Shown in pieces: positions 1,736-29,666 of a DNA stretch of 64,000 nt; position 1 is the first letter of the stretch; the number at the start of each line of letters is the position of its first letter. The notes beneath the pieces were generated by a model. The model had not been told where the DNA came from. It did no database searches and worked only from the letters and a program-made list of their open reading frames with translations. Position numbers and translations under genes: made by a program. This DNA is from Aphanomyces cochlioides (taxonomy: Eukaryota > Oomycota > Saprolegniomycetes > Saprolegniales > Verrucalvaceae). Where the stretch lies: contig JAHQRK010000029.1 of NCBI GenBank assembly GCA_019828595.1, positions 248,001 through 312,000 of the forward strand. The letters run 5' to 3'.

Positions 1736-1745
1736 TTAGCCCGCA

Positions 1746-11200: not shown

Positions 11201-11950
11201 CACTTTGGCTACAAGTAGCTCCTCGTCGTTCAGACGATGTGCTGCGTGGGCTTGTTGGGCTTGGAGCCACTTTAATATTGCTTGGTCGCGTGTTTGAGTG
11301 CGCTGAACGGTGTATCTTATGTGGTAGGTCTGGAGGAACCGTCTAGTTCTCTTTTTCCAGCCAGACCATAGAACCCCGACGTTGTTTGCCGTCTCCAGTT
11401 GTCCGAGGAGAATTTGAGCTTCGTTGCGAATAACTTGACGGACTTCTGGTATTGCCAAGAGCTCCCTTGGCAATTTCCAGTATGGCCGAGACGTTTGGAC
11501 TGCATTCGGTTGTAAACAAACTCTATGGTATAGATGATTGGTTGGGTCGGGACAAGGAAAGTATGAAGAGTCTTTGTATGCCTCTTCGACTAGTCGAGTT
11601 GTTACATAGATGTAATCCAGTCTCTTTCTGGACCGGGTGAGGAGTACGACCGCTGCAAGGGGTGGTGGAGTCTCCATGCGTCAATAATTCATAGAGCCTG
11701 GAGCCACGTCATACATTCCTGTCGACCTGTATAGTAGTTCCGTGTCCCTGCTATCGAGTCGATGGCACGGTCGATTGGTAGATTGAAATCACCCATAACA
11801 ATGTGCGTCGCATTTGGAGGGAATTCTCTCGGGAGGCTTTCAAAAAAGGCCTCTCTATCGTCGTTGTCTACCGGGGCGTACACGTTGTGAAAAAAAGACT
11901 TCCTGGTTGGTCCACGTCGTTTGAACAACCATATACTTGTCTGGGACGTC
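8231..11950 (-). pseudogene. LINE ORF2, copy B: C-terminal part (endonuclease remainder, RT, zinc knuckle)
   Basis: Continuation of the ORF2 interrupted by the Maverick; the sense frame resumes at GACGTC (11945-11950) as DVPDKYMVVQT. A run of Ts near 11890 carries an extra base that shifts frame. The rest of the endonuclease follows (VMGDFNLP at about 11795), then the reverse transcriptase in a 601-codon segment (9872-11677) with KGGDRKNTGNYRPISLIPVE, GFVKGRRIHDH and the catalytic LLFADDT near 10125. Segments 9363-9863 and 8436-9326 supply the C-terminus with a CCHC knuckle (C-x4-C-x8-H-x4-C) near 8690, and the frame ends at 8231 (YPRAFTTSSP). At least four frame breaks are present. No RNase H domain is seen. 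The family is L1-like by domain order; the exact clade was not determined. Confidence 0.88.
11945..11950. repeat. Left target-site duplication of the Maverick (GACGTC)
   Basis: GACGTC lies directly outside the left end; the same six bases follow the right end at 29235-29240. Counting it once, the LINE B reading frame passes through the junction without a break. Confidence 0.95.
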
Positions 11951-12230
11951 AGTAATAGCTGTTAAAGGTATATCGTGGCCACTTCAAAATTCTCACGACG
12001 AGAAGCATTAGTAAGGCATCATCCATTAGCTAAGAATGGATTCTCACCCATTTCCACAACCATACGCTAGAGACACCCTCGAGCAAAAAACACAATTAAC
12101 ACTTGTGGAAGTGTCCAAAGGCAAAATGATCACCACTCAAAGCATTTTGCATCACCAGCATAATCTTGACCTTCATACAGAAAATTTTAAAATTCATTTG
12201 ATCTTGAACAATAATTATTTATAATATAAT
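11951..12230 (+). repeat. Left terminal inverted repeat of the Maverick (280 bp)
   Basis: Matches the complement of 28955-29234 from AGTAATAGCTG to TTATAATATAAT, after which the two sides diverge. A 62-codon frame (12036-12224) is identical in both copies; it is probably fortuitous. The inner AT-rich edge lies just upstream of a gene at each end and may serve as a promoter. Confidence 0.95.
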
Positions 12231-12247
12231 ACAACAAATAATCACAA

Positions 12248-12403
12248 ATGGCTCCACCAAAGAAATCACCCGAAGACAAAAAACCAAGAGTTCAGGTGAA
12301 TCACGATTATTACTACAAACATCAACAACGCATCTTGGATCGAATTAATGCTAGAAATCACTACAAAAGAGAAGTTAATTTGTTAAGACAAATCAATGTT
12401 TAA
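12248..12403 (+). CDS. Small basic protein, 51 aa, unknown function
   Basis: The first gene inside the left terminal repeat, starting 18 bases after it. The protein begins MAPPKKSPEDKKPRVQ and is rich in Lys, Arg, Asn and Tyr, with no Cys and no membrane segment. The proline/lysine start could be a nuclear-localisation or DNA-binding tail, but that is a guess. Its position and AT-rich composition match the neighbouring Maverick genes, which supports it being real. I do not recognise a family. A TATA-like ATAATATAAT lies at 12221-12230 in the repeat edge. Confidence 0.5.
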   Translation: MAPPKKSPEDKKPRVQVNHDYYYKHQQRILDRINARNHYKREVNLLRQINV

Positions 12404-12520
12404 GACACAGAATTTTGATATTTTCTAAGCTATATTTTTTTTATTCCAACTCATATACATCTTCAAGAAAAACAATTTGATCTTGAAAGAAAAATTGTTA
12501 TTATATAGATCTGAAAAATT

Positions 12521-15500
12521 ATGTCATCAAAAGCTAATAATGCAATTAAAGCAACTAGAGCCAAGTCAGTAGTCTATCAACAGGCTAAATCACTTGGTCT
12601 CCCCGTTAGATGGGATATGAAAATATCCAAGATCCAAGAAATCCTAAATCAACCACAACGTAAAGCTGACTCTCAGACTAAAATTGCATCAGTCTTTAAG
12701 ATGTATAAAGCTAAATCACAATTAAGTGATTTCAAAGCATTAAAGAAGGTTAACAGTTATCAAACAACAACTTTGCTTCTTGAACAATTTAAGCGAATTC
12801 GTCCAAACATCATTGCTCCTGCCGACAAAAACTTATTAGTTCATTTTCTGGATATAGATGGATCAACTCTTCGAACGTATCATTTGAATTCTAATCAAGT
12901 AAATATTGAAAATCTTTATATAACTGAAAATAATGAATACACATCCGGAGCTGATGTTGATCTTAACATTCTTCCAACAACAATGATAACGTTAGAATGG
13001 ATTGAAGATCCAAAGCAATCCAGATCATCTCGCAAAAACTTTTTCCGTTATTTAACAAAAGCAGATTATTTACTTGACCAATTTCAAGTATATCCTGAAT
13101 CACCAAATGGTCTTCCAAAAGAATCAGAAATTCCATGCTTTCTATATGCTCTTGAGCAAGGAGGAGTTTCAAAAGTCATTGTTAATAAAATTAAGCAACT
13201 AATGTTTCATTCAGGTATTACAACTAATTTGTTTAAAAAAATAGCAGAAAAGTTTAAGTTAAGATTGGAAGTAAAAACCTATAAAAACAATAATGGAGTT
13301 AAAAGTTATAATATTAATAATTATGGACCTCATAGTAACAATGTAATTCGTCTTGGAGTAACGCCAAAACACGTATTTGCTATTAAAGAAACAAAAATCA
13401 CTCTAACAGCTCTTAATAATCCAGAAATTGTAAAAATAGAAGGATCGACTGAATTTATACTTCATCACGGACGAGTTAGTTATAATTCAAAACGAATCAA
13501 GTTTCTTGACAGTTTTGAAGTCATTTCACATTTATATCACAACAGAGATAAATTACTTATTCCTATTACTCAAAGTAATGTTCCTAAACTACTTAACAAT
13601 GAGTATCAAAAAGTTGATTCATTATATGAAGAAGACTTTGATGAGAATACATTCAAAGAAATTGGACGTGTTGATGGTACAATGAAATTTGGTCAATCGC
13701 CTTTCAATCAAGTAATTAATAAATACACTAAACAATATGAAGAAATAATCAACTTTAATGTTATCTATTTCGATTTTGAAACATTAGTAAATAATGATAA
13801 CGAGCACGTTGCCTACTGCATATCTTTCAAGATCCTAAAGTATAAATTTAGAAAGCTGTATTCAACAGGCGAAACACAAAACTTTTATGGGTTTGACTGT
13901 GCTCAACGATTTCTAGAGTCAATTCCCGAAAAGAGTCATAATTTACTTTGGGCTCACAATGCTGGATTCGATTTGCGTTTTCTAATGAAACACGTAACAA
14001 GCTTTTCTCAAAAGAGCAATATGATAGAATGCGGAACTCGACTAAAGCAAGCTCATTGCTTTTATAAAAGCTCTGAACTTGTAGTCAAATGCTCAATGAG
14101 TTTTATTAATAGCAAACTTGCAAATCTTCCAAAGATGTTCAAGGATGCAAGCAAAGATCTTAACTTAGAAAAAGAATCATTTCCTCATGACTTCATAAAT
14201 GAAAACAACTTCAAGTCAATGTGGAAGCTTAGCTATCTCAATGGATTTGAAGACAAAGGAGCTATGATTGCCAACGCAAACAAGATCGGTGCAGTAATTG
14301 AAGACCAAATCGATATCCAGAAGTATGCTATACATTATTGTAATCGCGATGTTGATGTTCTTCATACTTGTTTTGAAGCTTTCAGAATGATGTTTATTAA
14401 TCGTTTCAACATTGATGTATATCGATTTATGTCTATGCCATCAATTGCTTATGCAATTCAACATAATCAAGGTTGCTTTGATGGTTGCTATGAACAAAAT
14501 GGAATCGTTCTGGGATTTATCAGACAAGCTATTGTTGGAGGACGAGTTATGACTCGAGATAATAAGAAGTATCACATTAAACATCAATTATCGGATTTTG
14601 ATGCTGTTTCACTATATCCATCACTATATCCATCAGGACAATCAATATTAAGCGGTTATGTAAAAGGTAAAGCAAAATTCTTTAAGGATACAATTCCGAA
14701 TAATGCTGATTATTACATTGCTCGAGTTAGATTTAACTCTATCGGAAAACATCAAAGTTTTCCACTTTTAAGTATTCAACAAGATGGATCACGTGGTTTT
14801 ACAAATGATATCATAGGACAAACAATGGTTATTGGAAAGCAAGCTCTTGAAGATATTGTACAATTTCAAAATGCTACATATACGGTAATTGAAGGTTGTT
14901 ATTGGGATGAAGGTTTTAATCCAAAGATAGTAGAAGCAGTAAAAGAATTATTCAACGAACGACTTAAGTTGAAAAAAGAAGGCAATCCTCTACAAGAAGG
15001 AATCAAATTGCTCCTCAATAGCGCTTACGGAAAGCTAATTCAAAAACCAATTGTAAAAGAGAAGATACTTGTCAAAGGATCTGACGAGATTAAAGAGCGA
15101 ACAAAACGAAAGATTCATAAAATGATTTCAAGAACGTCAATTACTGATGATTTGGCATTATTTGAAGAACACAAATATCTCTATGAACATTATTCACCAG
15201 CTCATCTTGGAGTTCAGATACTCGATTCTTCAAAACATATTATGAATGAAGTTATGTGTCTTGCAGAAGATATTAAAGCTAACATTTGGTATCAGGATAC
15301 AGATTCGATGATGATTGATCGTGATGGGGTTCCAAAATTGGCAATCGCTTTTAAAGAAAAATATGGAAGAGAACTAATTGGAAAGCAAATGGGGCAATTT
15401 CATACAGATTTTAGTCTTGAAGGTTCAAAAGGAGAGGTTTATGCTAAGGAGTCAATCTTCTTAGGAAAAAAAAGCTATGTGAATGTGCTATCTTGCGATG

Positions 15501-15706
15501 GTAATGATGTTGAGGGACATCATATTCGTATGAAGGGTATTCCTGGAAAGCTTCTTAAAGAAAATCCTCTCGAAAAGTATATGAAGATGTATAATGGTGA
15601 ATCAATGGAATTTGATCTAAGCGAATGTTGTTCAATCGACATTAACACTAAGACACAAAAGGTAAGCAAGAGATTGAAGTTTACAAGAAAAGTTTCATTT
15701 GCTTAG
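12521..15706 (+). CDS. polB: Protein-primed family B DNA polymerase (Maverick pPolB)
   Basis: This enzyme replicates the element, presumably using a terminal protein as primer, as in Polintons and adenoviruses. The 1061 codons carry the 3'-5' exonuclease motifs (YFDFETLV at about residue 415; LLWAHNAGFDLRF at about 472; YCNRDVDVLH at about 607) and the polymerase motifs A (DFDAVSLYPSLYPSG, about 693), B (KLLLNSAYGKLIQK, about 828) and C (YQDTDSMM, about 923). All catalytic acidic residues of motifs A and C are present and the frame is unbroken. Length fits Maverick polymerases. The N-terminal 400 residues are Lys/Asn-rich and not assigned. A TATATAG sits about 20 bases before the ATG. The integrase starts 9 bases after the stop, suggesting a shared early unit. 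Confidence 0.97.
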   Translation: MSSKANNAIKATRAKSVVYQQAKSLGLPVRWDMKISKIQEILNQPQRKADSQTKIASVFKMYKAKSQLSDFKALKKVNSYQTTTLLLEQFKRIRPNIIAPADKNLLVHFLDIDGSTLRTYHLNSNQVNIENLYITENNEYTSGADVDLNILPTTMITLEWIEDPKQSRSSRKNFFRYLTKADYLLDQFQVYPESPNGLPKESEIPCFLYALEQGGVSKVIVNKIKQLMFHSGITTNLFKKIAEKFKLRLEVKTYKNNNGVKSYNINNYGPHSNNVIRLGVTPKHVFAIKETKITLTALNNPEIVKIEGSTEFILHHGRVSYNSKRIKFLDSFEVISHLYHNRDKLLIPITQSNVPKLLNNEYQKVDSLYEEDFDENTFKEIGRVDGTMKFGQSPFNQVINKYTKQYEEIINFNVIYFDFETLVNNDNEHVAYCISFKILKYKFRKLYSTGETQNFYGFDCAQRFLESIPEKSHNLLWAHNAGFDLRFLMKHVTSFSQKSNMIECGTRLKQAHCFYKSSELVVKCSMSFINSKLANLPKMFKDASKDLNLEKESFPHDFINENNFKSMWKLSYLNGFEDKGAMIANANKIGAVIEDQIDIQKYAIHYCNRDVDVLHTCFEAFRMMFINRFNIDVYRFMSMPSIAYAIQHNQGCFDGCYEQNGIVLGFIRQAIVGGRVMTRDNKKYHIKHQLSDFDAVSLYPSLYPSGQSILSGYVKGKAKFFKDTIPNNADYYIARVRFNSIGKHQSFPLLSIQQDGSRGFTNDIIGQTMVIGKQALEDIVQFQNATYTVIEGCYWDEGFNPKIVEAVKELFNERLKLKKEGNPLQEGIKLLLNSAYGKLIQKPIVKEKILVKGSDEIKERTKRKIHKMISRTSITDDLALFEEHKYLYEHYSPAHLGVQILDSSKHIMNEVMCLAEDIKANIWYQDTDSMMIDRDGVPKLAIAFKEKYGRELIGKQMGQFHTDFSLEGSKGEVYAKESIFLGKKSYVNVLSCDGNDVEGHHIRMKGIPGKLLKENPLEKYMKMYNGESMEFDLSECCSIDINTKTQKVSKRLKFTRKVSFA

Positions 15707-15715
15707 ATATATAAT

Positions 15716-16804
15716 ATGTCTGCACTTCTTAAAAAATTATACTATGATCCAAAGATTGGATTCATTAGCGCAACAGCATTGTATAAAAAAGCAAAAGAAC
15801 TTAATAATTCTATTACTCTAAAACAAGTTCGCGATTGGTATAAGAAACAAACTGATATTCAACAGCATTCAGCTCAAAACAAGAAATTTCCTGAGTTCAA
15901 AATTGCAAGCAACAATCCAAACTCATGGCAAATGGATTTAGCTTTTTGGCAAAAACAGCCAATATTTATCGCAATCAATATTAACAGTCGAATCGGCTTC
16001 GCCAAATTGTTGAAAAACAAAACTGCGCCTGTAGTTAGAAAAGCAATAGAAGAATTTCTTTCTCGAAACAAAACACATTCGTTTACATCAGATAATGGAA
16101 ATGAGTTTATGAATAAAAAAGTTCAAGAACTGTTAACAAAAGAACATATCAGTCATTACGCTGGAGAGTCTGGGGATCATACAATTCTAGGCAAGGTAGA
16201 TCGATTCATTAGAACGTTAAAATCAAGACTAACCAAAATGTTCGAGACAGGAATCTTTAAAAAGCTAACTCAAAAGCATCTAAACGATGCAATTTCAAAT
16301 TACAATGACACGGAACATTCATCCATTCATGCAACGCCAAATGAGATGAAAGGAAAAGTCATATTTTCCGAAAATGATCATAACCAAAATGTAGCAAAGC
16401 AAGTCTTAGAAAGCATCCCAATTGGCTCAAAAGTACGTTACAAATTGAAACCAAAAAATCCATTTCAAAAAGAAGGTGCTAAATATTCAAAATCCGTTTA
16501 TGAATTTATTGGATTAGATGGACTAAAGATGCATTTACGATCAAAAAATAATCACGTCGTATATAAACCAGTTAATGATATAAAAATAGTAGAAGCTCAA
16601 ACTACTTACGCTGATGGAAGAGCAAATGACATTTATGAAGCTGAGAAAATTTTAAGTCACAAGAAACTAAAAAATGGTCCATACAAATATCTGGTTAAAT
16701 GGGCTGATGGAAGTGAATCTTTTGAGCCTCAGAAGAATCTAAGAATATTTAATAAAAATCAAATGAGTCAATTAGAAAAAAATTATTTTGCACAGGTAAT
16801 ATAA
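15716..16804 (+). CDS. Retroviral-type integrase with C-terminal chromodomain (Maverick INT)
   Basis: Catalyses insertion of the element and so makes the 6-bp target duplication. In the 362 residues, the RNase-H-like core shows Asp74 (QMDLAFW), Asp126 (SDNGNEF) and, 36 residues on, Asp162 (KVDRFIRTLKS), where retroviral integrases have Glu; this gives a D,D(35)D pattern. The C-terminus (about 305-350: YEAEKILSHKKLKNGPYKYLVKWADG) is a chromodomain, which could steer insertion to marked chromatin. The frame is intact. It follows the polymerase with 9 bases between. Whether Asp162 is normal for this family I cannot check here; I recall VDRF/IDRF forms in Polinton integrases. Confidence 0.95.
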   Translation: MSALLKKLYYDPKIGFISATALYKKAKELNNSITLKQVRDWYKKQTDIQQHSAQNKKFPEFKIASNNPNSWQMDLAFWQKQPIFIAININSRIGFAKLLKNKTAPVVRKAIEEFLSRNKTHSFTSDNGNEFMNKKVQELLTKEHISHYAGESGDHTILGKVDRFIRTLKSRLTKMFETGIFKKLTQKHLNDAISNYNDTEHSSIHATPNEMKGKVIFSENDHNQNVAKQVLESIPIGSKVRYKLKPKNPFQKEGAKYSKSVYEFIGLDGLKMHLRSKNNHVVYKPVNDIKIVEAQTTYADGRANDIYEAEKILSHKKLKNGPYKYLVKWADGSESFEPQKNLRIFNKNQMSQLEKNYFAQVI

Positions 16805-16842
16805 ACTACCAAATATATATACGTTAATTAATTCGTAGTAAA

Positions 16843-18141: not shown

Positions 18142-18207
18142 AGGAAGGTTATCTGTAGACGAAGTCGGAAGATAAACTTACGACCTTATCATAGTAATAT
18201 AGAAGCT

Positions 18208-18414
18208 ATGAAAACGATTAATGTTAAACATCCATTTTTAAAAAAATATAATAAAAAGGCCAAAGAAAATGAAGATAGACTAATTGAAACGATGGAAAAC
18301 TTAATCATTGATAATACAGAACCAAAATCAAGTTTTCAAAGATATGGACCATCTATTGATGAATATAAAAGAAAAAAGAAATTAGAGCAAAAAGCAAAGA
18401 CATTTGCTCTTTAA
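18208..18414 (+). CDS. Small basic protein, 68 aa, unknown function
   Basis: Starts MKTINVKHPFLKKYNKKAKE and ends with a Lys-rich segment (YKRKKKLEQKAKTFAL). It has no Cys and no membrane segment, and is probably helical and nucleic-acid-binding by charge. It lies in line with the Maverick genes on the same strand, 66 bases after the 432-aa gene, with ATAGTAATATAGAAGC just upstream. I do not recognise a family. Confidence 0.55.
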   Translation: MKTINVKHPFLKKYNKKAKENEDRLIETMENLIIDNTEPKSSFQRYGPSIDEYKRKKKLEQKAKTFAL

Positions 18415-18485
18415 GATGATTTAATTATATATTTTTATTTTTTATGTAATTCATAAAATATAGACTTCGTTTAAATCAACGAAAT

Positions 18486-18965
18486 ATGAAAGGAACAGGA
18501 GGTTATAAAGTAGTTCACGTATCATCATCTCTTTCAAAGAAAAAACTTTCTAAAGCATCCAAAGGTGGTACAGTTGTATTTAGCGCTGATGATTTAAAAG
18601 GAAGTAAGCCAATGCTTGTGCATCCAGCTAATTATAGCAAAATAGTTCAAGCTCAAAAAGCTAATAAAGGAGCTCGTTTGGATTTTACTGAAGGGGAAAT
18701 TCATCACGATTTAAGCCATCACCAAGGCGGAAGCATTTGGGATAGTTTGAGATCAGGTTTGAGTACGGCTTGGAATAGCGTAATTAAACCTGTACTAAGT
18801 GGAGTTGGAGATGCAATCGCATATAGTAATCCAGAATTGGCCCCTATTAGGGAAGGCATTCGTAAACTTAGCGGCGTAGGTTTTCAAAAGGGCTCTCAAG
18901 CGGCTAAAGATCGTATGGCCCTTGTTCGTGCGAAGAAACGTGGTGGTAGTTTTCGACTAGTATAA
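18486..18965 (+). CDS. pX/pVI-like small virion protein with an amphipathic helix, 159 aa
   Basis: The protein has a basic N-terminus (SLSKKKLSKASKGG), a GG site (HHQGGSIWDSL, about residue 80) followed by an amphipathic segment (WDSLRSGLSTAWNSVIKPVL), and a basic C-terminus (RAKKRGG). This layout resembles adenovirus pVI and pX precursors, where a protease cleaves after GG and the freed helix acts on membranes or DNA. The assignment is by pattern and by position between replication and capsid genes, not by clear sequence match. If right, the protease at 25063 would act on it, but that gene is broken. The frame is intact. Confidence 0.65.
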   Translation: MKGTGGYKVVHVSSSLSKKKLSKASKGGTVVFSADDLKGSKPMLVHPANYSKIVQAQKANKGARLDFTEGEIHHDLSHHQGGSIWDSLRSGLSTAWNSVIKPVLSGVGDAIAYSNPELAPIREGIRKLSGVGFQKGSQAAKDRMALVRAKKRGGSFRLV

Positions 18966-19079
18966 ATATACCATTTTACGTTTGACCATGAGCTTTGAAC
19001 ACCAAAACATCAAGCTTTTGTAAAAAATCGGTAGTAAAAAAAATACCTCTATATAGAATATAAGCTTGTGCTTTCAACA

Positions 19080-19274
19080 ATGCTTATCGATTTAACATTA
19101 ATAAAAAAGACTCAAGAAATGATTGATGCTCAAGTTAAACGAAATCTGAATCCATACAAAAGAAACCGATACATTTGCGAATGTGGTGAATCAGTAAATG
19201 TCAGATATCGTTTTAGTCATCAAAGATCATATGCACATAAAAAAGCAATTTTAGAGATCGAAAGAAATAATTAG
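19080..19274 (+). CDS. Small single zinc-finger protein, 64 aa
   Basis: The C-terminal half contains YICECGESVNVRYRFSHQRS followed by YAHKK, a Cys-x-Cys...His-x5-His zinc-finger pattern of a kind I associate with small proteins of Mavericks and large DNA viruses. The chosen ATG (19080) gives 64 residues; a CTATATAGAATATA box lies about 25 bases before it. It ends 12 bases from the stop of the convergent minor capsid gene. Function unknown; DNA or RNA binding is likely. Confidence 0.65.
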   Translation: MLIDLTLIKKTQEMIDAQVKRNLNPYKRNRYICECGESVNVRYRFSHQRSYAHKKAILEIERNN

Positions 19275-19285
19275 AGGATAGTAAG

Positions 19286-20143
19286 CTAATTTTTTTTCGG
19301 TCTAATAATCAACTGAATTAAAATTTGACTATCTTCAAACTTGACAATATTATAATTCTGATCGCAAATTATCACTTCTATGTATGGTCTTGAGCCATCA
19401 GAAATTTCTACCCAAGAATACTCAGGATATCTTACATCTATTAAATCCCCAATAGTGGTGTTTTGTGATGTAAAAGTCGTTAAAACATCAGGAACAGAAG
19501 TGTACGGATTATTAACTAAATTACAACGAACTAAAAAGCTTGAAACAGGGTTTACTTGTGGAGTAAAACTACTCAAAAACGATTGAGCAGTCGTTTGACG
19601 AGAGGGAGGAAATGTTGCAACTTGATAGCCAACTATTAAATTAAATCCACTCGGAATTACAATTTGAGGTGCATAACCTCCTGTTGGTACGCCTGTGGAA
19701 TACAATCCAGTGAATGGTAGCGACCAGCCTGTTGGTAAACTTAAAGGAGTAGGTAATAAATCAATTTGGCAACCATAATATGTAGAATTTTCTGAAATAT
19801 TAAAATATATCACATTGTTTCCATTAGAATCAATCAGATATGCACCAGCCGCGATAAGTTTAGAAGCTACATAATTTTGAATATCAGCATAACTGTAATA
19901 ACCATTAGGTAAAGTGATAGATATGGTCGATGTAGTAGCGCCATATGGTACAATAATTTGAAATGTATTATTTCCATACAAGGTTTGATTAATATTGAAT
20001 TGAGAATTATACAATTGGATGCCAGCAACAGCAATCTCCATATTGCTAAAATTGACTGCACTATTCCCAAATGTATATCTTAGCGTATTATTATAGCCAT
20101 TATTCACAATATGAGTTGAATTAAGAACAATAAGTGAGCTCAT
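19286..20143 (-). CDS. Minor capsid protein (penton, single jelly-roll type)
   Basis: This 285-residue protein is rich in Thr, Ser, Asn, Gly and aromatic residues and predicted to be mainly beta strand, with no Cys cluster or membrane segment. It starts MSSLIVLNSTHIVNNGYNNT and contains NGYYSYADIQNYVASKLI and a C-terminal strand (ILIQLIIRPKKN), features I associate with Maverick penton-like proteins. Its place next to the packaging ATPase and near the major capsid gene fits. The frame is intact. It is transcribed together with the ATPase gene (gap about 90 bases), both on the minus strand. Confidence 0.85.
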   Translation of the reverse strand: MSSLIVLNSTHIVNNGYNNTLRYTFGNSAVNFSNMEIAVAGIQLYNSQFNINQTLYGNNTFQIIVPYGATTSTISITLPNGYYSYADIQNYVASKLIAAGAYLIDSNGNNVIYFNISENSTYYGCQIDLLPTPLSLPTGWSLPFTGLYSTGVPTGGYAPQIVIPSGFNLIVGYQVATFPPSRQTTAQSFLSSFTPQVNPVSSFLVRCNLVNNPYTSVPDVLTTFTSQNTTIGDLIDVRYPEYSWVEISDGSRPYIEVIICDQNYNIVKFEDSQILIQLIIRPKKN

Positions 20144-20233
20144 TTTTTCTTATGTTATTTTATATCATTTATTTATTATTTGATTGAAATAATTGTCTCT
20201 CTAATTGCTGAAAGCAAGCTTATCAAAGTGTAT

Positions 20234-20905
20234 TCAAATCAATTTTTTCCCAAAATTATACTTCAATTCTTGATTAACAGAATCAACAAACAGAGCTTGG
20301 CCTTTGCTTGCAGTAGCTTTATTGTATGCTTTGATCATTTTGTCTTCATTAACTTCAGGAATGTTAAAATCCTTACAAACCATTTGAAGATCTCTTTTGC
20401 TATTTGCTTTTAAAATAAATACATATTCGCTATTCAATCTAATGGTTTTATTAGTATCGAAATATGAATGAGCTAAAAATATTGTGCTTAACAATTTGTG
20501 TCTTCCACGGGTGAAATAATGCGTAAATATATTTTTTTGAAGCATTTTGTCATTTGAATAATCATCGATGATAACTAATTGTAATGAGCCATTATTTGGA
20601 ATATCGTCAACAGAAGGAGGTGGTTCATTTGGGTCATAAATCGTAATGAAGTCTTTTAATTTATCTTTTAAGTAATTATACAGACTTTGCTCAGGATTGC
20701 GAGCAATAATATGCAAATGGCTGTAAATATGAGGAGAGTGCTTGAGAATATGAAAAATTAGATTCGTCTTACCAGAATAGCTGGGTCCCAGCACGATAGC
20801 TCTGAAAAGGTTCTGAATTTTAAGATCTTTGTTTATACCATGAGACTTACTTTTATAAGCCTTAGGCAATTTTCCTCCCCAATCAACTATCTCATTGGAA
20901 CTCAT
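20234..20905 (-). CDS. FtsK/HerA-type genome-packaging ATPase (A32-like)
   Basis: Pumps element DNA into capsids in related viruses. In the 223 residues the P-loop is GPSYSGKT (residues 40-47) and Walker B is LVIIDD (about 110-115), followed by a typical FTHYFTRGRHKLLSTIFLAH stretch that provides the polar sensor segment. The N-terminus (MSSNEIVDWGGKLPK) is short, as in Polinton ATPases. The frame is intact. A TATATATA box lies about 20 bases before the ATG, in the divergent region shared with the fibre gene. Confidence 0.95.
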   Translation of the reverse strand: MSSNEIVDWGGKLPKAYKSKSHGINKDLKIQNLFRAIVLGPSYSGKTNLIFHILKHSPHIYSHLHIIARNPEQSLYNYLKDKLKDFITIYDPNEPPPSVDDIPNNGSLQLVIIDDYSNDKMLQKNIFTHYFTRGRHKLLSTIFLAHSYFDTNKTIRLNSEYVFILKANSKRDLQMVCKDFNIPEVNEDKMIKAYNKATASKGQALFVDSVNQELKYNFGKKLI

Positions 20906-20973
20906 TTATTAGAAAGCTAATATTATATATATTTTAGAATATATACTTATTTGTCTTCAACTCTATTAAAAAT

Positions 20974-23318
20974 ATGAGTGGAATCATAGCTAATACACCT
21001 ACTATAAATAGTTCAACATACAATCCGTCAAATTACACAAGTGATGTTTATTTGAGAAAAAGTGATCCTAGAGTCTCATATATCAGTAATCTAACTGCTG
21101 GGCAAGCAAGTGCTAAAAAGGCATTAATTTTAGATTCAGGGCTTTCAATAAGTGGAATCAACTCGATTGGTATGACTGGTTCTTACACAAATACAAGCAC
21201 TACAGATAGCTCATCTACATCGACTGGATCAATGATCACATCGGGCGGTCTTGGAGTTGCTAAAAGCATTTATAGCGCGGGAAAATACGTTATTAATGGA
21301 ACAGCTCAGATTACATTAAACAGTTCATCAAATTCTGCTGGACGGAGCACAATTGCTTTCACTAATGACGTTTCTACGTTTGAATTGGGAAGCCGTGGGA
21401 GTACTAATGGTACTTATAATAACTCGATGTACATTTACAATGGAGGTTATCTATGGACTATGAGCTCCACTGGAAATACAAGCTTTCTAAGCACATCAGA
21501 TGCAACCAGTTCATCTTCTGGAGGAGCACTTACAATTAACGGAGGATGCTCCGTTGCTAAGAAATTATACGTAGGAACTTCGGTTAATGCTCAAAGTTTA
21601 TCACTTGCATCCACAACAGATGCCTCCAGCCCAACTGTTGCTCCTTGTACAATCTCTGGTGGTGCGGGTATTGCAAAGTCATTGTATGTTGGATCAAATT
21701 GCTTTCTGGGAACTGGATCAACTGGTGGCGTATGTGTAGGCACGAGTACTGATACCGCTCGTATGATCTCATGTTTGAATAGCGGCATGACGACTTCGTC
21801 CAGCAATTACATAACACTTGGTCAAGCTGCTACGAGTAATAATCAGGCTGAAATCTCATTCTTCTACAACAATTCGAGCAGTACTCTCAATCGAATCGAT
21901 TTTGGATTCTTCGGAAGCGGTAGATACTTCCAAATTCAAGCTACGAGCGATTGCTCTTTTAATGGTATTAATGATGCTACGAGCGCTTCATATGGCGGCG
22001 CTTTAACCAGTCTTGGAGGATTTGCATGTCAGAAGAAGCTATTCGTTGGTACGTCTGCCAATATTGGTACGAGCGCGACTATTGGAACAGCTATGAATAG
22101 TGCAACAGCTACGATCGGCTCAAGTTCAAATACCGGAGGTACCCTTTCTATCACGAGTGTCGGATATCACTGTTCGATGTATTATAGTAGTACTGTCTAT
22201 ACTTCGATCAATACGAGCGCAGCTGGCGATTTCGTCATTAATTCAGCAAATGGCGCTACGACAACATACTATACATTTGCTAATAATGGACAAATCCAAC
22301 TTAGTGGTATTACAGCTCGCAATAGCCATAAAATGGACTTGGGGACAAATACAAGCAAAGATAATATCATTTGTTTGGCCCAAGCTATATGCTTGGCGTA
22401 TCAAGTTCATCATTAAACTACACATCAGGTGGTTTGCATACATGGTATTACAATTCAACAACTACACCAGCTATAACGGGTACTCAACAAATGCAAATTA
22501 CTACAGGAGGCAATCTAAATATTGCGAATGGAGGCGTTCATTGCTATGGTCTTAATGCGGCCGATCTCGCGACAACGGGGGCTGGAATGCACATGCACTA
22601 TTCAACAGGCTCGAGCGTTGGTATCATACAATGCTTTGACTACAGCGCCGGCTTATATAAGGATATCGCAATCCAGTCTACTTTGTTCTATAAATCATCA
22701 AATGGATTTTGGGGCGTTGGTACTAATAATCCAAATGCTCCTCTTCACATTCAAGGAACTGGACAGATTTCTACTTCATCGGGTTTCACATTTATTACAT
22801 CAACGAGTGTCGGTCAAGCTTCTGGGTTTACTAATCGTTCTTTCTCTCTATACACATCGGGAGGTATTATGGTGGCGTCTGGTGAAATTGATTGTCTTTC
22901 AGATTTGAGAACAAAGTCTGATGTAATCGATTTAGATTCAGACTTATCTGAACGCTTTATTAGAAATATCACTCCTATCGAGTATAGCTATAAGGCAATT
23001 CCTGAGAAGCGCCATTATGGCTATGGTGCACAAGAACTCGTGAAACATGGTTTGAGTGTGTTAGTTGGCGCTACTGATTCGGATGAACCATTGCCCGAGG
23101 AAATTATTGAATGCGTTAATGGTGATGTTATTCAGATTGGATCTGATAGCCGCCTTGTTGTCGATGTGATTAGTATTGTACCATTGCTGCATTCTGCTCT
23201 TAAACGTGCGCTTGAGAGAATTGATAATCTAACTCAAGTTGTTGGAAAACAACAGATACAAATTGAACAACTGACAACTAAACCTGCTCGACGCGCAAAA
23301 AGCAGCGCTTTGATGTAG
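20974..23318 (+). pseudogene. Fibre/spike protein with S74 chaperone domain, one frame shift
   Basis: A long, Ser/Thr/Gly-rich fibre. The first part (20974-22416, 480 codons) has four diverged repeats ending in motifs such as GGALTINGGCSVAKKLYVGT and CTISGGAGIAKSLYVGS. The second part (to 23318) lies in another frame and ends in a Peptidase_S74 intramolecular chaperone (LRTKSDVIDLDSDLSERF, then PEKRHYGYGAQELV) and a C-terminal coiled-coil-like segment. S74 domains help trimerise fibres and then cut themselves off. One missing base near 22376-22381 would explain the frame change; otherwise both parts are open. It is presumably the host-attachment fibre of the virus-like particle. Such a protein is unusual in a Polinton. 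Confidence 0.88.
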
Positions 23319-23360
23319 CTGAGACGATGAAAAAAAAGCAATTGGTCTTGACCCCACGCG

Positions 23361-23372
23361 CAGACGCGTCTG
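23361..23372. terminator. 12-bp palindrome between convergent fibre and capsid genes
   Basis: CAGACGCGTCTG is a perfect palindrome in the gap between the 3' ends of the fibre (+) and capsid (-) genes, followed by a T-rich run (TATTTTTTTGG at about 23395). It could help end transcription or form 3' ends in both directions; no loop is present, so this is tentative. Confidence 0.3.
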
Positions 23373-23410
23373 GTCCTCACACCTGATCGTTTAGTATTTT
23401 TTTGGTGTAT

Positions 23411-25008
23411 TTAAGTCCAATGATGAATTTCCCCAGTTAAACGGTCAACAGAAAGCTCTCGTTCATACACAACAAATACTAAAGCATTCATACCTTGACA
23501 GCAAGCATTAACACCGCTTACGATAACTGATTGTGGAACGTCTGAATTAGTGATACGAGAGCAATCAGCAACCATGATACGCTGAATCGTTTGCCACTTT
23601 TGAAAATCAATCAAACCATTTGAAATTTCGTGAGTGAGACCACCATTAATTGCCCCAAGTTTCTTAAATTCGTCATTCCAAGCTTCAAAATCGTAATCCA
23701 ATGTTTTGCTAAATACGTTGTCATTCCCAACTTGAACTTGAAAACTACGAATTGAGCTACCTGCTTGACAAGTCCAAGGCGCACTATCAAATGGGCTTTG
23801 GAATTGTTCTACACCGTTAGCCGACGAATTTGCAAAATGTCCGCTGCTTGTTTCGCTGTATGGTACCAAACAAACATATTTGATATTTTTCCAAGAACCA
23901 GATAATTGAAGATTGAATGTAGCATTTTGTTGAGCTGAAGAAAGAGCACCAGTGCCGGCTTTTCCTTGGAAATATTGAGCATAACAATCAAGATATTTCA
24001 CGTTCTTTACGGGCTGACTTACAATCGGTAACGGATCAGCAATATCATAGAATGGAATATTTAATCTGGCCGTTGTAAATGGAAGGTATTGCCCAGCTTG
24101 GGCTAGCGTTGTAATGTTATTCTGAAGAGGAGTAATTTCAATTGAGGATTTCCGATAAGATCCAATTCTTTAAAAATTGGATGAAGATCAACAAGACGAA
24201 TTTTTAACATATGATGCCAAACACCAAGAACCGAGCCCGCCACTGGTGCAGTATTTACAACAAAAGCTCCTTTGCCGTTTTGAGCTGCAATGGTTGATGC
24301 TACAGAAGATCGTTGTGTAATCCAATTGTAGGCATTTACTCCACCCGTATAGTTTCCCGATGCATCAATGTTTCCAGTAAGTTGTGGATTGCTGTAAATA
24401 CGAGAAATAAATCCATTATTTTCTTTCAACGATGCCTCAGTTGGTACAGTTCCCAAAGTAGCGGTGCAATTTGAGAAATTGTTAGTAAAGCCATCCCCCG
24501 ACTTTGATTCCACAGCAGAAAACGACATAGATTGCCAATCATCCGCGCTCATAAAAGCGTCAGCACCGTGTTTATTAAGGTCAGAAGTACTCCATTCAGT
24601 CATTGCACGAATGTTATTCCAGTAGAGTTTGAAATCCGATTCTGTAATGATAGTTTGTCCATTAAGTTCTACTGTCATTGAGTCAATGATATTCCATACT
24701 CCAGCTTTTAAAGCAGTACAATAACGATTGATGCCATTGGGGGGGTTGCCATTAGCGAATGCCCCAGCACCAGTATTTTTCATAGAGACAATATACGGTA
24801 GCGTAAGATAAGCATCCTTTAAAGAAGCAAATCCTTTAGCCCCTTGAAGACTTGTTGCAGCATCAATGGAAATAATACCAGATTGATAGCTACCCTGATT
24901 TACATCGGGGACTTGAACCATTCGTTTTCCTTTAGAAACGCTAATAGATGGTTCACCCTTTAAAGAGCTTTCATATAAAAATTGATCGGCTAATTGATAC
25001 TCACTCAT
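23411..25008 (-). pseudogene. Major capsid protein (double jelly-roll type), one frame shift
   Basis: The shell protein of the presumed virus particle. The first 301 codons run from ATG 25008 (MSEYQLADQFLYESSL) down to about 24103. The frame then changes near 24151-24156 and continues through 24001 to 23411, giving about 532 codons in all if one lost base is allowed for. Landmarks are IDSMTVELNGQTII in the first roll, GVWHHMLKIRLVDLHPIF before the break, YLDCYAQYFQGKAG and the C-terminal NALVFVVYERELSVD. Length, order and position beside the protease fit Maverick/adintovirus capsid proteins. Apart from the single break no stops occur, so decay is recent or it is an assembly error. A TATATAATTAATAAAATATA box precedes the ATG. 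Confidence 0.9.
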
Positions 25009-25062
25009 TATATTTTATTAATTATATACATCCACAGATAAGATTATTTTTTAAATTATTTA

Positions 25063-25436
25063 ATGGACCTAATAAAAGGAATTACAAGCGATCATCAGTT
25101 AATTAAATTATCTAATTTATTGGGTGTTGAAATAACAAATATTTACACTTTTGAAGAAATAAAAAAACAATTGCCCAAAAACGGAAATTATATTATTTTG
25201 TTAGAAAATGGTGGTGGAATTGGACTGCGATTTATAAAAATGAATATTTTGATTCTATGGGCGAGCCACCGCCTTTGATTTTGGGAATAAAAAAATATAA
25301 CAAAAAACAATATCAATCAACGTATGCTGAATATTGCGGTATATGGTGTATGCTTTGGTTATATGCAAAACAGAATAATCGTATGGATTTATTTGATGGA
25401 TTCCACGATTTAAACGATAAAACATTTGAAAGCTAA
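25063..25436 (+). pseudogene. Adenain-like cysteine protease (Maverick PRO), frame-shifted and lacking the His
   Basis: Expected to process virion precursors. The first 50 or so codons (MDLIKGITSDHQLIKLSNLL...NYIILLENGG) are in one frame; near 25213-25220 the frame changes and the rest reads NWTAIYKNEYFDSMGEPPPL through AEYCGIWCMLWLYA to the TAA at 25434. The catalytic Cys motif (YCG) and the FDSMGE block are present. The position of the catalytic His, usually HW, reads Asn-Trp (AATTGG), right beside the break. Total length is about 124 codons, typical of these proteases. It is divergent from the capsid gene, with about 54 bases between starts. Confidence 0.82.
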
Positions 25437-25738
25437 AATTGCTCAAGCTCAGATATTAACTTTGGGCAATTTTCTATCACATATTGATTATTTTTTAACC
25501 AATCAATATAATTTGGGTCAATTTCTTTAATTTTATTCAGAGTTAGATTTCTATGCTTGCCCCATCGCATTTTATAAGACAAATCAGCATCTTTTAATTT
25601 TTCGGTTAAATATGTTTTAATTTCTGGTTTGTTTGACAATAACATTTCCTGATTTATTAACCATTTACAGTAATTTTGATCAATCTTAAAAACTTCTTGA
25701 ATAGTCTTAGCTTTGTATTTTCCGAAATTTAATTCCAT
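25433..25738 (-). CDS. Protein with two ExoX-C-like repeats, 101 aa
   Basis: Two copies of a short motif make up the protein: MELNFGKYKAKTIQEVFKID with YCKWLINQE (residues 1-31), and MRWGKHRNLTLNKIKEIDP with YIDWLKNNQ (about 57-86). The pattern F/W-GK-(x)n-ID-x-Y-x2-WL matches the accessory C-terminal domain of ExoX-like exonucleases, which I also know as stand-alone proteins in large DNA viruses and Mavericks. No nuclease catalytic domain is present, so it probably binds DNA or a partner. The stop overlaps the last bases of the protease gene. A TATAGAATATATT box lies upstream. Confidence 0.75.
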   Translation of the reverse strand: MELNFGKYKAKTIQEVFKIDQNYCKWLINQEMLLSNKPEIKTYLTEKLKDADLSYKMRWGKHRNLTLNKIKEIDPNYIDWLKNNQYVIENCPKLISELEQF

Positions 25739-25948
25739 TATTTTTAATATATTCTATAGGTGATAGGTATTTTTAAAATTAATTAAATATTGAATTTTTG
25801 AATTGGTCAAGTTTGGATGTTCAATTTTTGTGAGTAAATGTTGGACTGTCTGTTATGTTCATCAGGTTTTTGTCGGGAAAACGGCATATTTTTCCAATAA
25901 TAAATCAAGTCAGTTCCGATTAACCATTTCTCTCTAAATATATAATGA

Positions 25949-26080
25949 CTGACATTGAGTTATTTTCAATCAAATGGACATATAAAAACACGTCTTTTAT
26001 TGACATTGAGTTAAATTCAAACAAATGATGGACAAAAAATATGGTTATTTCATTGACTATGAGTTAAACTGAAACAGATG
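25949..26080. repeat. Three ~27-bp direct repeats with ~52-bp spacing
   Basis: Imperfect copies at 25949-25978, 26001-26027 and 26053-26080 share TTGACATTGAGTTA followed by TTCAA and CAAATG. They lie in the roughly 360-base gap between the ExoX-C-like gene and the next small gene. The regular spacing suggests binding sites for a replication or transcription protein. No similar copies are seen elsewhere in the element. Confidence 0.7.
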
Positions 26081-26101
26081 TAAACATACTAATATCCAAA
26101 C

Positions 26102-26290
26102 TCATATTTTATTACAGTTAATTATTTCTGCTTTACTCATTCTTTTAAAATACGTAGTAGCCCAATCGTTATACAATTTATAGATTTTATTAAATCCATA
26201 GAATCCTTCATAATCTTTATCTCCGTATGGACTTGTAATTACAATATAAGCATCATCGTTTGTTTTATAAATCTCTACGTGGTCAAACAT
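26102..26290 (-). CDS. Small conserved-looking protein, 62 aa, unknown function
   Basis: Reads MFDHVEIYKTNDDAYIVITS followed by PYGDKDYEGFYGFNKIY and ATTYFKRM. The pattern of a mini-domain with 'YIVITSPY' and a later 'ATTY' resembles small uncharacterised proteins of large DNA viruses that I have seen, but I cannot name a family. No Cys cluster or membrane segment. It is AT-rich like the rest of the element core. Confidence 0.5.
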   Translation of the reverse strand: MFDHVEIYKTNDDAYIVITSPYGDKDYEGFYGFNKIYKLYNDWATTYFKRMSKAEIINCNKI

Positions 26291-26946
26291 TTCACGGTTT
26301 TCGTAATTATTACATAAATATGTTCTATATCTTGCTTTAAATTTTACAATAATTAAAATAGGTGCAATTGTTATTGTCCCGTTTTGAATAAATATAAAAT
26401 ATGATCAAATTGTTTGATGTTTTATTGCAAAACAAATTTTAATATATTTGCACCAAATGCGGATCAACATACTTGTGAGATATTGGAGTATGGTAACTTC
26501 GCCCGTCCAAAATGGGGGCCACAGTGATGAAAATTGACGCAAACTGTTTTTTCACTATTTTTAATTTTTTTGAAAACAAACAACTTGGGCAGTGTTTGCG
26601 CAGGAGTCAAAATGGAAATTTACAGATATTTTGTGATATACATTGTATCATAGTCCAAAAACCTAAAGAAGAGTTAGTAGTAGAACTTAATGTTAACACC
26701 CTATGAAACACATTAACTGCTTCTAAATAATTGAAAAGAATATTTGTTGGAATACGAAGATCGCACACATTTTTAATATGAGATTTTGACAGCCTTACAT
26801 TTTGTATTGCTGCCATTCGCTGATTTCGTTGCACATGATTGGTTGATAATATTCAACGAGATAAGCAATGATTGGGTAATATCGTCACCACGAACTTGGC
26901 TTTTAAAGCGCAAAATCCCGTCCCAGCTCCTGCACTGCAGACGAAC
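26291..26946. other. Transition from element core to cargo gene; no gene seen
   Basis: The first half is very AT-rich like the Maverick core, and from about 26500 base composition becomes more balanced, like the cargo gene that follows. Only short frames occur. The change marks the probable left edge of the captured segment; no flanking repeats of that segment were found. Confidence 0.5.
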
Positions 26947-28567
26947 ATGTCTGTCGAAGCGCAAGGTGTGCAGGACGTGACTGTCGACTTGCCAACTGCT
27001 TTCAAGTATCGCGCGGAAGAATACTATGTGAGAAAAGCGTACTCGTCGTATTATGTTCGTGTAATTGAACTTCTACAGACATACGACTACATCTCAGTGA
27101 CTGGAACACCAGGTTTGAACTTGTATACGATTAAAAGATGGATAACAGACGCGTGTGTTTTGTGTAGGCATTGGCAAATCGATCTTTTATGACTACTTCT
27201 TTTCTCGATACCGAAATGAACACCACGAGGCTATTATTGTTACTGCGTCTTTCAACAAGGATCGGCAATTGGAGGAGTGTGTCGTGTTTGGTCCAAATGG
27301 TAATACTCAAGTATTTTTTGACATGGTCGAAGTTAGTCGTTTCGGATATCAACACCCCGAAGCCATTCATCTCTATGATGGACCGCCATCTGTGAAACCT
27401 GCGCGATCGAAAATGGTAACTTTCACAAGTCCCAATTTTGGTTGGCTCGATTCGATGCGGAAGAATGTCGAAGCTCATTGCGAGCTGTATATGCCTGTTT
27501 GGGAATTGGGCGAGTTGGGTGACGCCGTCAAAGTGTTGAATTTGGAGATATCAGACGAAGAATTGACCGAGAGATATAAACAGTTTGGTGGTGTCCCGCG
27601 CTATTGTCTAGCAAAATCAGCCAGAGCGTATCGAAAGGGATTGATCGCCATGGAACAAGCGATTGAGAAGATTAAAACGGTGGAGGATGTTCAAGCGTGC
27701 TTTGAAATGTCTGTGCCGTTAAATCTTGTAGTTCATCGACTGCTGCATTACATTCCTGAAGAGGATCCAACATTTGCAACACTCGAGTTTGGTTCGGATT
27801 GGATTGGAATACGGATTTACAACCAACTCGCCGTTAAACTTAGCCAAGAACGAGCAAAGTTGATGAAATGGCTTGACGGTGCAGGAGAAGCGTCTACGTT
27901 TAATGGATGGTTGTTTGAAAATCTCGCCCATGAAAAACTTTTTGACGGTGGTACGTTCAAGTGCGTACAACTTGACGAACGAAGGCAAGAGATATCGCTG
28001 ACGATCAATCGGACCATTGGGCATTATGAGCGGTTTGCAACTAACTTTACTTTGGAAATGGTCTTTCAGAATGTGTATCAAATCCCGAAATCTCAAACAT
28101 TCAAGTCCATTGACTCGTTTATCCATTTGGGTGAGACGTTGCTGTTGTTCCAAATTACAAAATCATTAAACCATCCAGTCGATTGTGCAGGATTAGTGGA
28201 ATTGTTTGCAAAGTTGGAGCTTGTTGACAAGATCAAACAAAACCCACGCTTTGCTCAACTGATATTTGTTGTGCCTCAAGGAATTGGCGACTCGTACAAG
28301 AATCAACAATTGATCACTCAAAATTTGCATTTGGAAGACTTGATGGGAGCCGGCGTGAGATGTATTTCAGGTATTGGGCCAGTCCTGCAAAAGAAGTTGC
28401 ACGACAAGAACATTTTTACTTGTTCACATTTGAAGGCTCATTCTAAAGATCCGGAGGTGAAACATGAGTTTGAGCTTTTGACCAAGCACATCGATCGATT
28501 GAAGCAGGTGTGCGACTTGTCGTATTTGAATATGATTCCACAATATGTGCTTGAGCTTGAAGTCTAA
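26947..28567 (+). CDS. Crinkler/RHS-like NTPase-nuclease, two exons (Maverick cargo)
   Basis: Two exons (26947-27112 and 27168-28567) join in frame to 521 codons, creating the P-loop TGTPGIGKS across the junction; unspliced, the P-loop is broken. Further landmarks of the Crinkler/RHS NTPase family are LYDGPP (Walker B-like), TFTSPNFGWLD and FGGVPRYCL. The C-terminal half (GWLFENLAHEKL, GGTFKCVQL, then SIDSFIHLGETLLLFQITKS and HPVDCAGL) fits the PD-(D/E)xK-type nuclease domain of that family. There is no LFLAK-type secretion header or signal peptide. The chosen ATG gives MSVEAQGVQD. Composition is more GC-rich than the Maverick core. The frame is intact, suggesting recent function. Such proteins in oomycetes act as effectors or in genome conflicts; the role here is unknown. 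Confidence 0.9.
27113..27167 (+). other. 55-bp spliceosomal intron in the cargo gene
   Basis: GTTTGA...TTTTGTGTAG, with a pyrimidine-rich end. Removing it joins CCA-G to GC-ATT-GGC-AAA-TCG and restores the P-loop. It is the only intron that I can support in the Maverick. Confidence 0.88.
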
Positions 28568-28785
28568 GGATTGATCAATATATATATATGTTTCTGCTGG
28601 CGCTCAAAAGTCTACACCCTTGCGATCCTACCTCTGTCATTTGACGTACGACGGCTACAGTACTTGCGAATACCAGGGCGTGAGTGAATACAAAAAAAAT
28701 GTTCGTATTCATATTAAAATAAACGTAATAAAGTGTATTTCAAGTATTGCGCATTTCAGTTATTTGGCAATTTTACCCGATCGAT

Positions 28786-28956
28786 TTATACAAAAAATTC
28801 TTTCGCTAATGATTTAATATTATAATCTTCAACAAATTTATTCCTATTATCAACAATTAATTTATCAGGACGATCAAGTGTTTCTGGAACGCTAAATGAC
28901 CCCCAATAAGTTTTTGCGTAAATTATTGGGTAATTTGTTAAATCTGAATATCGCAT
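28786..28956 (-). CDS. Small protein starting at the terminal-repeat edge, 56 aa
   Basis: The ATG (28954-28956) straddles the inner edge of the right terminal repeat (which starts at 28955), so its promoter would lie wholly inside the repeat. The protein begins MRYSDLTNYPIIYAKTYWG and has no motif I know. It mirrors the 51-aa gene at the other end, which also starts just inside its repeat. AT-rich composition is like the element core. Confidence 0.4.
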   Translation of the reverse strand: MRYSDLTNYPIIYAKTYWGSFSVPETLDRPDKLIVDNRNKFVEDYNIKSLAKEFFV

Positions 28957-29234
28957 TATATTATAAATAATTATTGTTCAAGATCAAATGAATTTTAAAA
29001 TTTTCTGTATGAAGGTCAAGATTATGCTGGTGATGCAAAATGCTTTGAGTGGTGATCATTTTGCCTTTGGACACTTCCACAAGTGTTAATTGTGTTTTTT
29101 GCTCGAGGGTGTCTCTAGCGTATGGTTGTGGAAATGGGTGAGAATCCATTCTTAGCTAATGGATGATGCCTTACTAATGCTTCTCGTCGTGAGAATTTTG
29201 AAGTGGCCACGATATACCTTTAACAGCTATTACT
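28955..29234 (-). repeat. Right terminal inverted repeat of the Maverick (280 bp)
   Basis: Inverted copy of 11951-12230, ending ...CAGCTATTACT next to the GACGTC duplication at 29235-29240. Confidence 0.95.
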
Positions 29235-29666
29235 GACGTCAAGGTGGTTGAGGTGTTTGAGATTGTTGAAACCCGGGGTTTCACTTTGAAAAATAAACAT
29301 GACCCCACTACTGCGGCGAGGTGCTATCTCTGGATTGTCGGTCCGGTGGTCATTGGTTGCCAGGAAGTTGTTGCCAATGCCAAGGGTGTGGTCAAGATGG
29401 AAACGCACCTTGTCATAATGATATTTGCTTGCCAGTTTGGTTTCCTGGATGGCGATGACTGTGTGCTTCGTCACAAGGTGAGAGATGAGTCGATGTCCAT
29501 TGTCTTTGAATCCATTGGTATTCACTGTCAATAGGGACAGTTCTGTTGTAATGTCGGAGGAATACACACCCACGGTTTGTCGATGATGTGTTGTGGTATG
29601 AGGATGTGAGGTTGAACGAGTTCGTGAAGGTGTTGAGCGTTGTGGCATGGTTGTCGTCGAGGAGCC
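29235..29666 (-). pseudogene. LINE ORF2, copy B: N-terminal part (endonuclease start)
   Basis: Starts directly after the ORF1 stop (TAA, 29667-29669) in the same frame, as GSSTTTMPQRS, with an ATG at 29648. It covers the first half of the endonuclease: TVNTNGFKDNGH, then AIQETKLASKYHYDKV with the catalytic Glu, and stops at HLNHLDV, where the Maverick is inserted (GACGTC, 29235-29240). The remainder is at 11950 and below. This piece is open over its whole length. Confidence 0.9.

Follow-up and report, generated by a model that had tools for sequence, protein, structure and literature searches.

Crinkler-type genes are scattered across distant eukaryotes; by what means they move, and which role they had originally, are open questions. 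A gene carried inside a Maverick transposon of the oomycete Aphanomyces cochlioides raises both of them at one locus. The locus lies in a window of 64,000 nucleotides (contig JAHQRK010000029.1, positions 248,001 to 312,000, or C22:248001-312000, where C numbers denote contigs), taken from the assembly GCA_019828595.1, which comprises 76.2 Mb in 94 contigs. In this window a Maverick spans positions 11951-29234 and sits within a long interspersed nuclear element (LINE); the gene in question, referred to below as the cargo gene, adjoins the right terminal inverted repeat (TIR) of the Maverick. An initial annotation had proposed an intact two-exon gene here, at 26947-28567 between the TIRs, and its frames and splice sites were confirmed in the sequence. 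Beyond that annotation, we found that the cargo is fixed in 20 copies of the element, that one segment of it is hypervariable, and that a second Maverick subfamily of the same genome carries other Crinkler-type genes.

The cargo gene consists of exon 1 (26947..27112), a 55-bp GT-AG intron (27113..27167) and exon 2 (27168..28567), all on the forward strand, and removal of the intron rebuilds the P-loop GTPGIGKS, as had been claimed. The assembly holds 20 full-length copies of the element, the window's included, and a relic on contig C56 with the gene in pieces; 40 TIR matches, forming 19 pairs and two singles, were assigned to these 20 elements and the relic. A search with exon 2 returned 45 rows, 20 of which were full-length matches with 83-100% identity and without stops; the others were partial, full-length at 70% (one row) or relatives at 24-35%. 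The expectation that other Mavericks would have the same cargo at the same place was borne out within this genome: the gene occupies the same position in all of the 20 full-length copies, and exon 2 is open in every one. Since the bases adjoining the right TIR differ in all 20 copies, these represent separate insertions. A later insertion of the cargo with its own duplication was rejected on the strength of the shared position in the 20 copies; no dedicated test for a flanking duplication was made. Further cargo relatives, mostly 56-78% identical and partly broken, were observed at C2:1503817-1517011, C3:1431244-1432632 and C78:2549035-2550425 with no listed capsid nearby; they are possibly solo or relic copies.

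The intron begins with GT and ends with AG in each of the 20 copies (55 bp in 17, 54 bp in three), which, together with the open exon 2, is consistent with splicing. Three partial database proteins named Aphanomyces euteiches (P0001, P0010 and P0011), 99-100% identical to copies in the assembly over 214-397 residues, run uninterrupted across GTPGIGKS. Fifteen copies have an upstream in-frame ATG (MDGS...) that matches the A. euteiches database proteins; the remaining five, including the window copy, are without this stretch and have an ATG at 26947 instead, the likely start codon of the window copy. The inner ATG is missing in eight copies, all of which have the upstream one, so that no copy is without both. 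Several indel haplotypes were observed upstream of the cargo at 26450-26900, including a 20-bp block and the loss of the upstream start in five of the 20 copies. The claim that the cargo is richer in GC than the element core held against the region of 12-21 kb (44% at 27-28 kb versus 30-33%), but less so against the fibre/capsid block at 21-25 kb (about 40%).

What kind of protein does the cargo gene encode? For the searches of the assembly and of database proteins, for the comparison of copies and for the residue and codon counts given below, exon 2 was read from position 27149, the first six codons of this reading being intron. The profile search that the initial annotation had suggested gave no match of either exon to the Pfam Crinkler or RHSP profiles at E up to 1; the homologue P0003 reached RHSP at E 0.039 only, below the cut-off, and the nSTAND3 profile was reached in homologues below the cut-off only. 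The Crinkler header PF20147 was found in neither exon by profile search, which makes the label 'effector' doubtful. No signal peptide was seen by eye in exon 1, to which no predictor was applied, and the window protein had no match to PADLOC defence profiles at E up to 1. The link to the Crinkler/RHS (CR) family comes from 24-27% identity to relatives and from the fold, not from a profile match. The P-loop NTPase that characterises the CR superfamily is present, and the predicted model has a P-loop NTPase fold, for which the top rows of the fold search were STAND and ORC proteins, yet with Clp/Hsp104 rows only 1-2 Z away. In the part resembling a restriction endonuclease (REase), QxT occupies the expected position of (D/E)xK, and we tentatively regard this part as an REase-like domain with an odd active site; a helix-hairpin-helix lies close to the C-terminal end. 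These features support the cargo product as a headerless CR-type protein with a predicted STAND-like P-loop NTPase, a putative REase-like domain and a helix-hairpin-helix. Of the Crinkler/RHS NTPase and nuclease originally proposed, an NTPase with a nuclease-like end thus stood, and the match to family profiles did not.

The relatives in the same genome are of the NTPase type and match the cargo at E 1.5e-16 to 3.1e-7 with 24-27% identity; of those read, two (L042 and L046) carry PF20147, while L041 (partial) and L044 fall short. Outside the genome, 49 database matches were obtained. Among them are proteins named A. euteiches, Thraustotheca and Phytophthora, others from Lithocolla and from a chytrid, Terramyces, and a large number of unnamed ones from metagenomes. 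UniRef names two of the relatives, P0012 and P0046, as Crinkler (CRN). P0003, from A. euteiches, is 63% identical to the cargo and likewise has no header match. In the tree, the cargo clusters with the A. euteiches, Thraustotheca and metagenome proteins, with the chytrid and Lithocolla proteins farther out on the same side; five cargo rows and the four NTPase-type Crinkler relatives lie on opposite sides of supported branches, and long branches meet among the four. A viral origin of the cargo was also considered and rejected, as predicted viral structures gave one row below E 0.001, with a probability of 0.23. Searches for the cargo in prokaryotic genome contigs and IMG/VR viral contigs, and for the capsid in viral contigs, returned no confirmed relatives, a weak negative resting on 2-3 peptide patterns.

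To describe variation within the family, the right-hand half of each of the 20 copies was compared with the others, and 14 copies were then chosen that belong to the large fibre cluster and, in the cargo, agree in the clusters of the middle and of the end; divergence values below refer to these 14. The six others (C22, which is the window copy, C4, C17b, C45a, C34 and C67) have the same three cassette types described below. The 204 sliding windows of 210 bp that start before 26190 or after 28564 had a median divergence of 0.14% and a maximum of 1.5%, and the peak in the cargo was 15.9%, for the 210-bp window at 27224. By blocks, divergence was 0.1-1.0% outside 26450-27430 and 1.5-5.6% in the upstream block (1.5%), exon 1 with the intron (3.9%) and the first codons of exon 2, and it rose to 15.8% in the hypervariable stretch (27218..27430, forward strand). 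In the left half, the comparison of the other 19 elements rests on the integrase, found full-length at 99-100% at 18 loci (window and relic counted), and on a small element protein (18450..18965, forward strand) used as a divergence control, of which 18 of the 20 copies, the window's among them, are 100% identical, as against 99% for C45c and 81% for C17b. The dN/dS of the cargo outside codons 25-95 was 0.24 in the 14 copies; that of the capsid was 0.15 in the 17 copies with an open frame and 0.49, on few changes, in the 13 open ones among the 14.

The core of the hypervariable stretch is a cassette at about 27290-27370 (codons 48-73), which follows the strand behind the P-loop helix and precedes the Walker B-like LYDGPP. 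It occurs in three types, A in five, B in six and C in nine of the 20 copies, and any two types share 9-11 of 29 residues. On either side are short flanks at residues 40-43 and 81-86, the left and right types of which are associated with each other (p 5e-5) but not with the cassette between them (p 0.55 and 0.96). Residues 42/83 are M/P in 11 copies, K/E in six and E/K in three, and residues 43/86 are E/R in 13, K/D in four, D/R in two and E/H in one. In 36 wider relatives the same positions are again coupled: the pairs 106-146, 108-148 and 109-151 (P0003 numbering) ranked 11, 33 and 1151 of 98,346 in coupling uncorrected for kinship, compared with 19,367 and 19,015 for the off-register pairs 108-151 and 109-148 and 89,780 for 107-147. 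Charges in these 36 rows, also uncorrected for kinship, were opposite in 14 and equal in one at 108-148, and opposite in 19 and equal in four at 109-151. The flanks covary both among the copies and among the wider relatives, and so behave like the two fitting halves of a clasp at the base of the cassette.

The three A. euteiches database proteins have cassette type B or C with flanks known from the assembly. P0001 and P0011 match C13b and C13a best, respectively, but have exon-1 types unlike theirs; the shuffling is therefore no artefact of the assembly. The variability of the cassette suggests a weapon or a sensor under strong evolutionary pressure. The fibre gene, considered as a second hypervariable locus, was rejected: it is variable over all 20 copies, but in the form of three haplotypes, with 17 of the 20 copies in one cluster. 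The copies C22, C45a and C17b have fibre modules unlike the one common to these 17, possibly through a swap of the receptor-binding part.

Is the cargo peculiar to this family of Mavericks? A capsid search gave 68 rows, which were merged by hand into 48 loci. Nine of these form a second Maverick subfamily, with an integrase at 56-57% and a capsid at 61-62%, and at all nine a PF20147 match occurs on the strand opposite to the capsid gene, at a distance of 931-947 bp from its start. No header is near a tenth capsid, at 62% (C45:1623583), among the matches listed. Header matches were scored for 150 of 184 candidates, so a missing header is no proof of absence. Three others occur near capsids, at 2.2-2.9 kb on C20, C31 and C6, and one more at 7.4 kb on C45. 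In total, 13 of the 150 listed matches have a capsid start no more than 8 kb away; if the matches were spread uniformly, 0.94 would be expected within 5 kb, a rough yardstick given that Crinklers cluster. The cargo read from one locus of the second subfamily (L049) consists of the header followed by a different C-terminal part; six of the other loci match it over nearly the whole length at 81-93%, and those on C78 and C10 match the header only. Seven of the nine capsids score 785.2-787.1 bits, like scores being no proof of identity, and two are in pieces.

At C5:1159k, where the element is related to that of the window (integrase 91%), the cargo stretch holds other open reading frames (ORFs), one of them glycine-zipper-like below the cut-off, and beyond these 176 bp match the TIR at 92%. 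An ORF at C20:856k resembles Uma2-type nucleases, again below the cut-off. The stretch from the capsid block to the right TIR thus seems to be a slot for cargo, frequently for Crinkler-type genes, and because such genes occupy it in two subfamilies, we regard them as standing Maverick cargo in this genome. Several other Crinkler genes were seen around Maverick capsids. At L046 (2302-4125, or C20:710304-712124), an intact header-type Crinkler of 608 codons with an NTPase-nuclease body lies 1.4 kb from a capsid that is 95% family-like, and no TIR end was found beyond the Crinkler within the 6.5 kb read. At C6:86033-91036 and C31:271252-275834, header-type Crinkler genes related to the cargo of the second subfamily (39%; 34 and 42%) are next to highly diverged capsids of the Maverick type (28-29%), with a protein of the 18450 type between capsid and Crinkler. 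Dense arrays of like Crinkler header matches are present at one contig end (C25, 685-780 kb) and on C28, C88 and C90.

In our preferred reading, which we consider evenly poised between right and wrong, the gene is standing cargo of oomycete Mavericks and a headerless member of the CR NTPase-nucleases, most likely active within the oomycete cell, where it would serve in conflicts of mobile elements with one another or with viruses. The STAND-like NTPase would bind and hydrolyse ATP and assemble when triggered, DNA would be engaged by the helix-hairpin-helix together with the REase-like domain, and any invading or rival DNA would be either cut or retained. Between the P-loop part and Walker B, the hairpin with its helix would serve as a recognition or assembly surface, specifying either a partner or who assembles with whom; the three cassettes would be exchanged between element copies, and selection would keep their diversity. 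That selection shaped the cassette may be questioned, as a recent burst of the family, with gene conversion with older diverged copies, could have left old polymorphism as a mere by-product. This explanation, which concerns the cassette only and is compatible with any of the others, strikes us as rather doubtful. It would account for the strong mosaicism (among 1006 site pairs 50-99 nt apart, 636 violate the four-gamete test) and fits the diverged fibre module in three of the 20 copies. However, in the 14 copies the divergent patch stays within the cargo and the region upstream of it, with its maximum at a single structural element, the cassettes are discrete with covarying flanks, and the second subfamily has a similar contrast between variable cargo and near-equal capsid scores, which are not proof of identity.

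The protein could instead be a plant-directed Crinkler effector hitchhiking on the Maverick, secreted and acting in host nuclei, with cassette diversity serving escape from plant recognition. The nearest named family is indeed Crinkler, through the UniRef names mentioned above; A. euteiches, with proteins 99-100% identical to copies here, is a legume pathogen (PMC8780586, accessible text); and the second subfamily carries header-type Crinklers. We nevertheless think it unlikely, because the cargo itself has neither the header nor a signal peptide recognisable by eye in exon 1, and because it has relatives in Terramyces, Lithocolla and many metagenome proteins. No more probable is an accessory role in transposition, in which the NTPase with its REase-like end would act in the manner of TnsC/MuB and TnsA in target choice or target immunity: the cargo gene was not seen at C5:1159k, where other ORFs precede the matching TIR end, the second subfamily carries a different architecture, and one would hardly expect a core transposition factor to vary more than any other gene. 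Capture from the host had been suggested in the initial annotation; that a single Maverick took up a host Crinkler gene recently now appears very improbable. The genome does offer a possible source, with at least 150 header-type Crinkler matches and the NTPase-type relatives at 24-27% identity, but the tree sets the cargo apart from the four such relatives tested, and the 63% identical A. euteiches protein is also without a header match.

How does the cargo compare with known systems? The papers cited here were consulted in their accessible parts, and what is said of their content refers to those parts. CR proteins have a P-loop NTPase followed by an REase-like domain, and a prokaryotic, transposon-linked origin has been proposed for them (PMC5289972). 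The cargo, with its putative REase-like domain, would share this order of domains, and it has 24-27% identity to proteins of the same genome, two of them with PF20147; it differs in being headerless and Maverick-borne, in the helix-hairpin-helix near the C-terminal end, in QxT at the (D/E)xK place and in the hypervariable cassette. The Avs/AVAST proteins and eukaryotic STAND/NLR proteins are among the top fold rows for the NTPase part, and Avs4 is also among the nuclease rows, but the cargo has no PADLOC match, its nuclease-like part is C-terminal and no sensor repeats were recognised. According to a meeting report on work by Widen et al. (PMC10680173), nematode Mavericks carry protease (wosp) and kinase (krma) genes between species; these are likewise conflict-type genes in Mavericks, but of other gene families and hosts, and the accessible text describes no hypervariable cassette.

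An association of Polintons with CRN genes had been noticed earlier. In Phytophthora sojae, Polinton was reported to outnumber all other repeats within the 2 kb flanking duplicated CRN genes, being present at 63 of them, and it was proposed that transposons may have carried the genes or helped to duplicate them (PMC3726527), but the accessible text describes no element anatomy or cassette. A giant-virus insertion in Phytophthora parasitica combines CRN genes with fragments of Polintons on a single contig (PMC8204020), yet CRN genes are not described in that text as cargo inside Polintons. Both Mavericks and Crinklers are mentioned in a study of Rhizophagus irregularis (PMC8647823), the accessible part of which draws no link between the two. 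For A. euteiches, 160 CRN and CRN-like genes (PMC5907361) and, in a 72-Mb long-read assembly, 234 predicted CRN effectors (PMC8780586) have been reported. In the literature searched, which left subscription journals mostly uncovered, no description was found of Crinkler-type genes as fixed Maverick cargo with a shuffled hypervariable cassette.

The element in the window has the anatomy of a Maverick/Polinton, with AGT-starting TIRs, a 6-bp target-site duplication and genes for DNA polymerase, integrase, packaging ATPase and capsid. The TIRs (left 11951..12230, forward strand; right 28955..29234, reverse strand) form a 280-bp pair of 100% identity, and the left one accounts for the 40 matches in the assembly at 97-100%. 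They are bordered by the identical duplications GACGTC at 11945..11950 and 29235..29240; GACGTC is palindromic and was hence initially read as the repeat's own end. When the flanks were joined, they matched a second LINE copy in the window across the junction (583 bp at 73%), so that the LINE is restored at the insertion site. The 6-bp duplication was established for the window copy. Inside, the element encodes a type B DNA polymerase of the organellar/viral kind (12515..15706, forward; PF03175, E 5.7e-29), a retroviral-type integrase with a chromodomain (15707..16804, forward; PF00665, E 2.7e-06, and PF00385, E 3.8e-05, both slightly below the curated cut-off) and an A32-like packaging ATPase (20234..20905, reverse; PF04665, E 1.1e-07), the polymerase and A32 profiles being above the cut-off. 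The fibre-like protein with an S74 chaperone end (20938..23318, forward; PF13884, E 4.7e-07) has a broken frame in the window copy and a 750-codon frame in 14 of the 20 copies. The major capsid protein (23411..25014, reverse) was identified through homologues, which UniRef names 'Capsid protein' (P0144) and 'Major capsid protein' (P0164). The decay of the capsid gene that had been noted applies to the window copy, but a frame of 587 codons is open in 17 of the 20. A small ORF in a homologous copy (L046:931-1329), without a Pfam match, is a candidate for the maturation protease. Elsewhere in the window, inverted repeats of about 3 kb (1-3024 and 44862-47884, 99-100% identical) enclose about 41.8 kb including LINEs and the Maverick, the left arm running to the window edge. 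Open frames at 52206-53250 and 53497-54975 are presumably a Harbinger-type and a pogo/Tigger-type transposase, respectively.

Crinkler cargo in two Maverick subfamilies of one genome provides a concrete vehicle for the movement of these genes, and a testable original role besides attack on plants. The roughly 100-fold contrast in divergence between the cassette and the rest of near-identical elements points to a surface under pressure and supplies sets of alleles. We put forward, as a possible and still tentative view, that oomycete Mavericks may wage a self/non-self contest through a STAND-like nuclease protein, the recognition hairpin of which would be swapped as a cassette and clasped by charge-swapped flanks, and that such elements may have spread Crinkler-type genes among eukaryotes.
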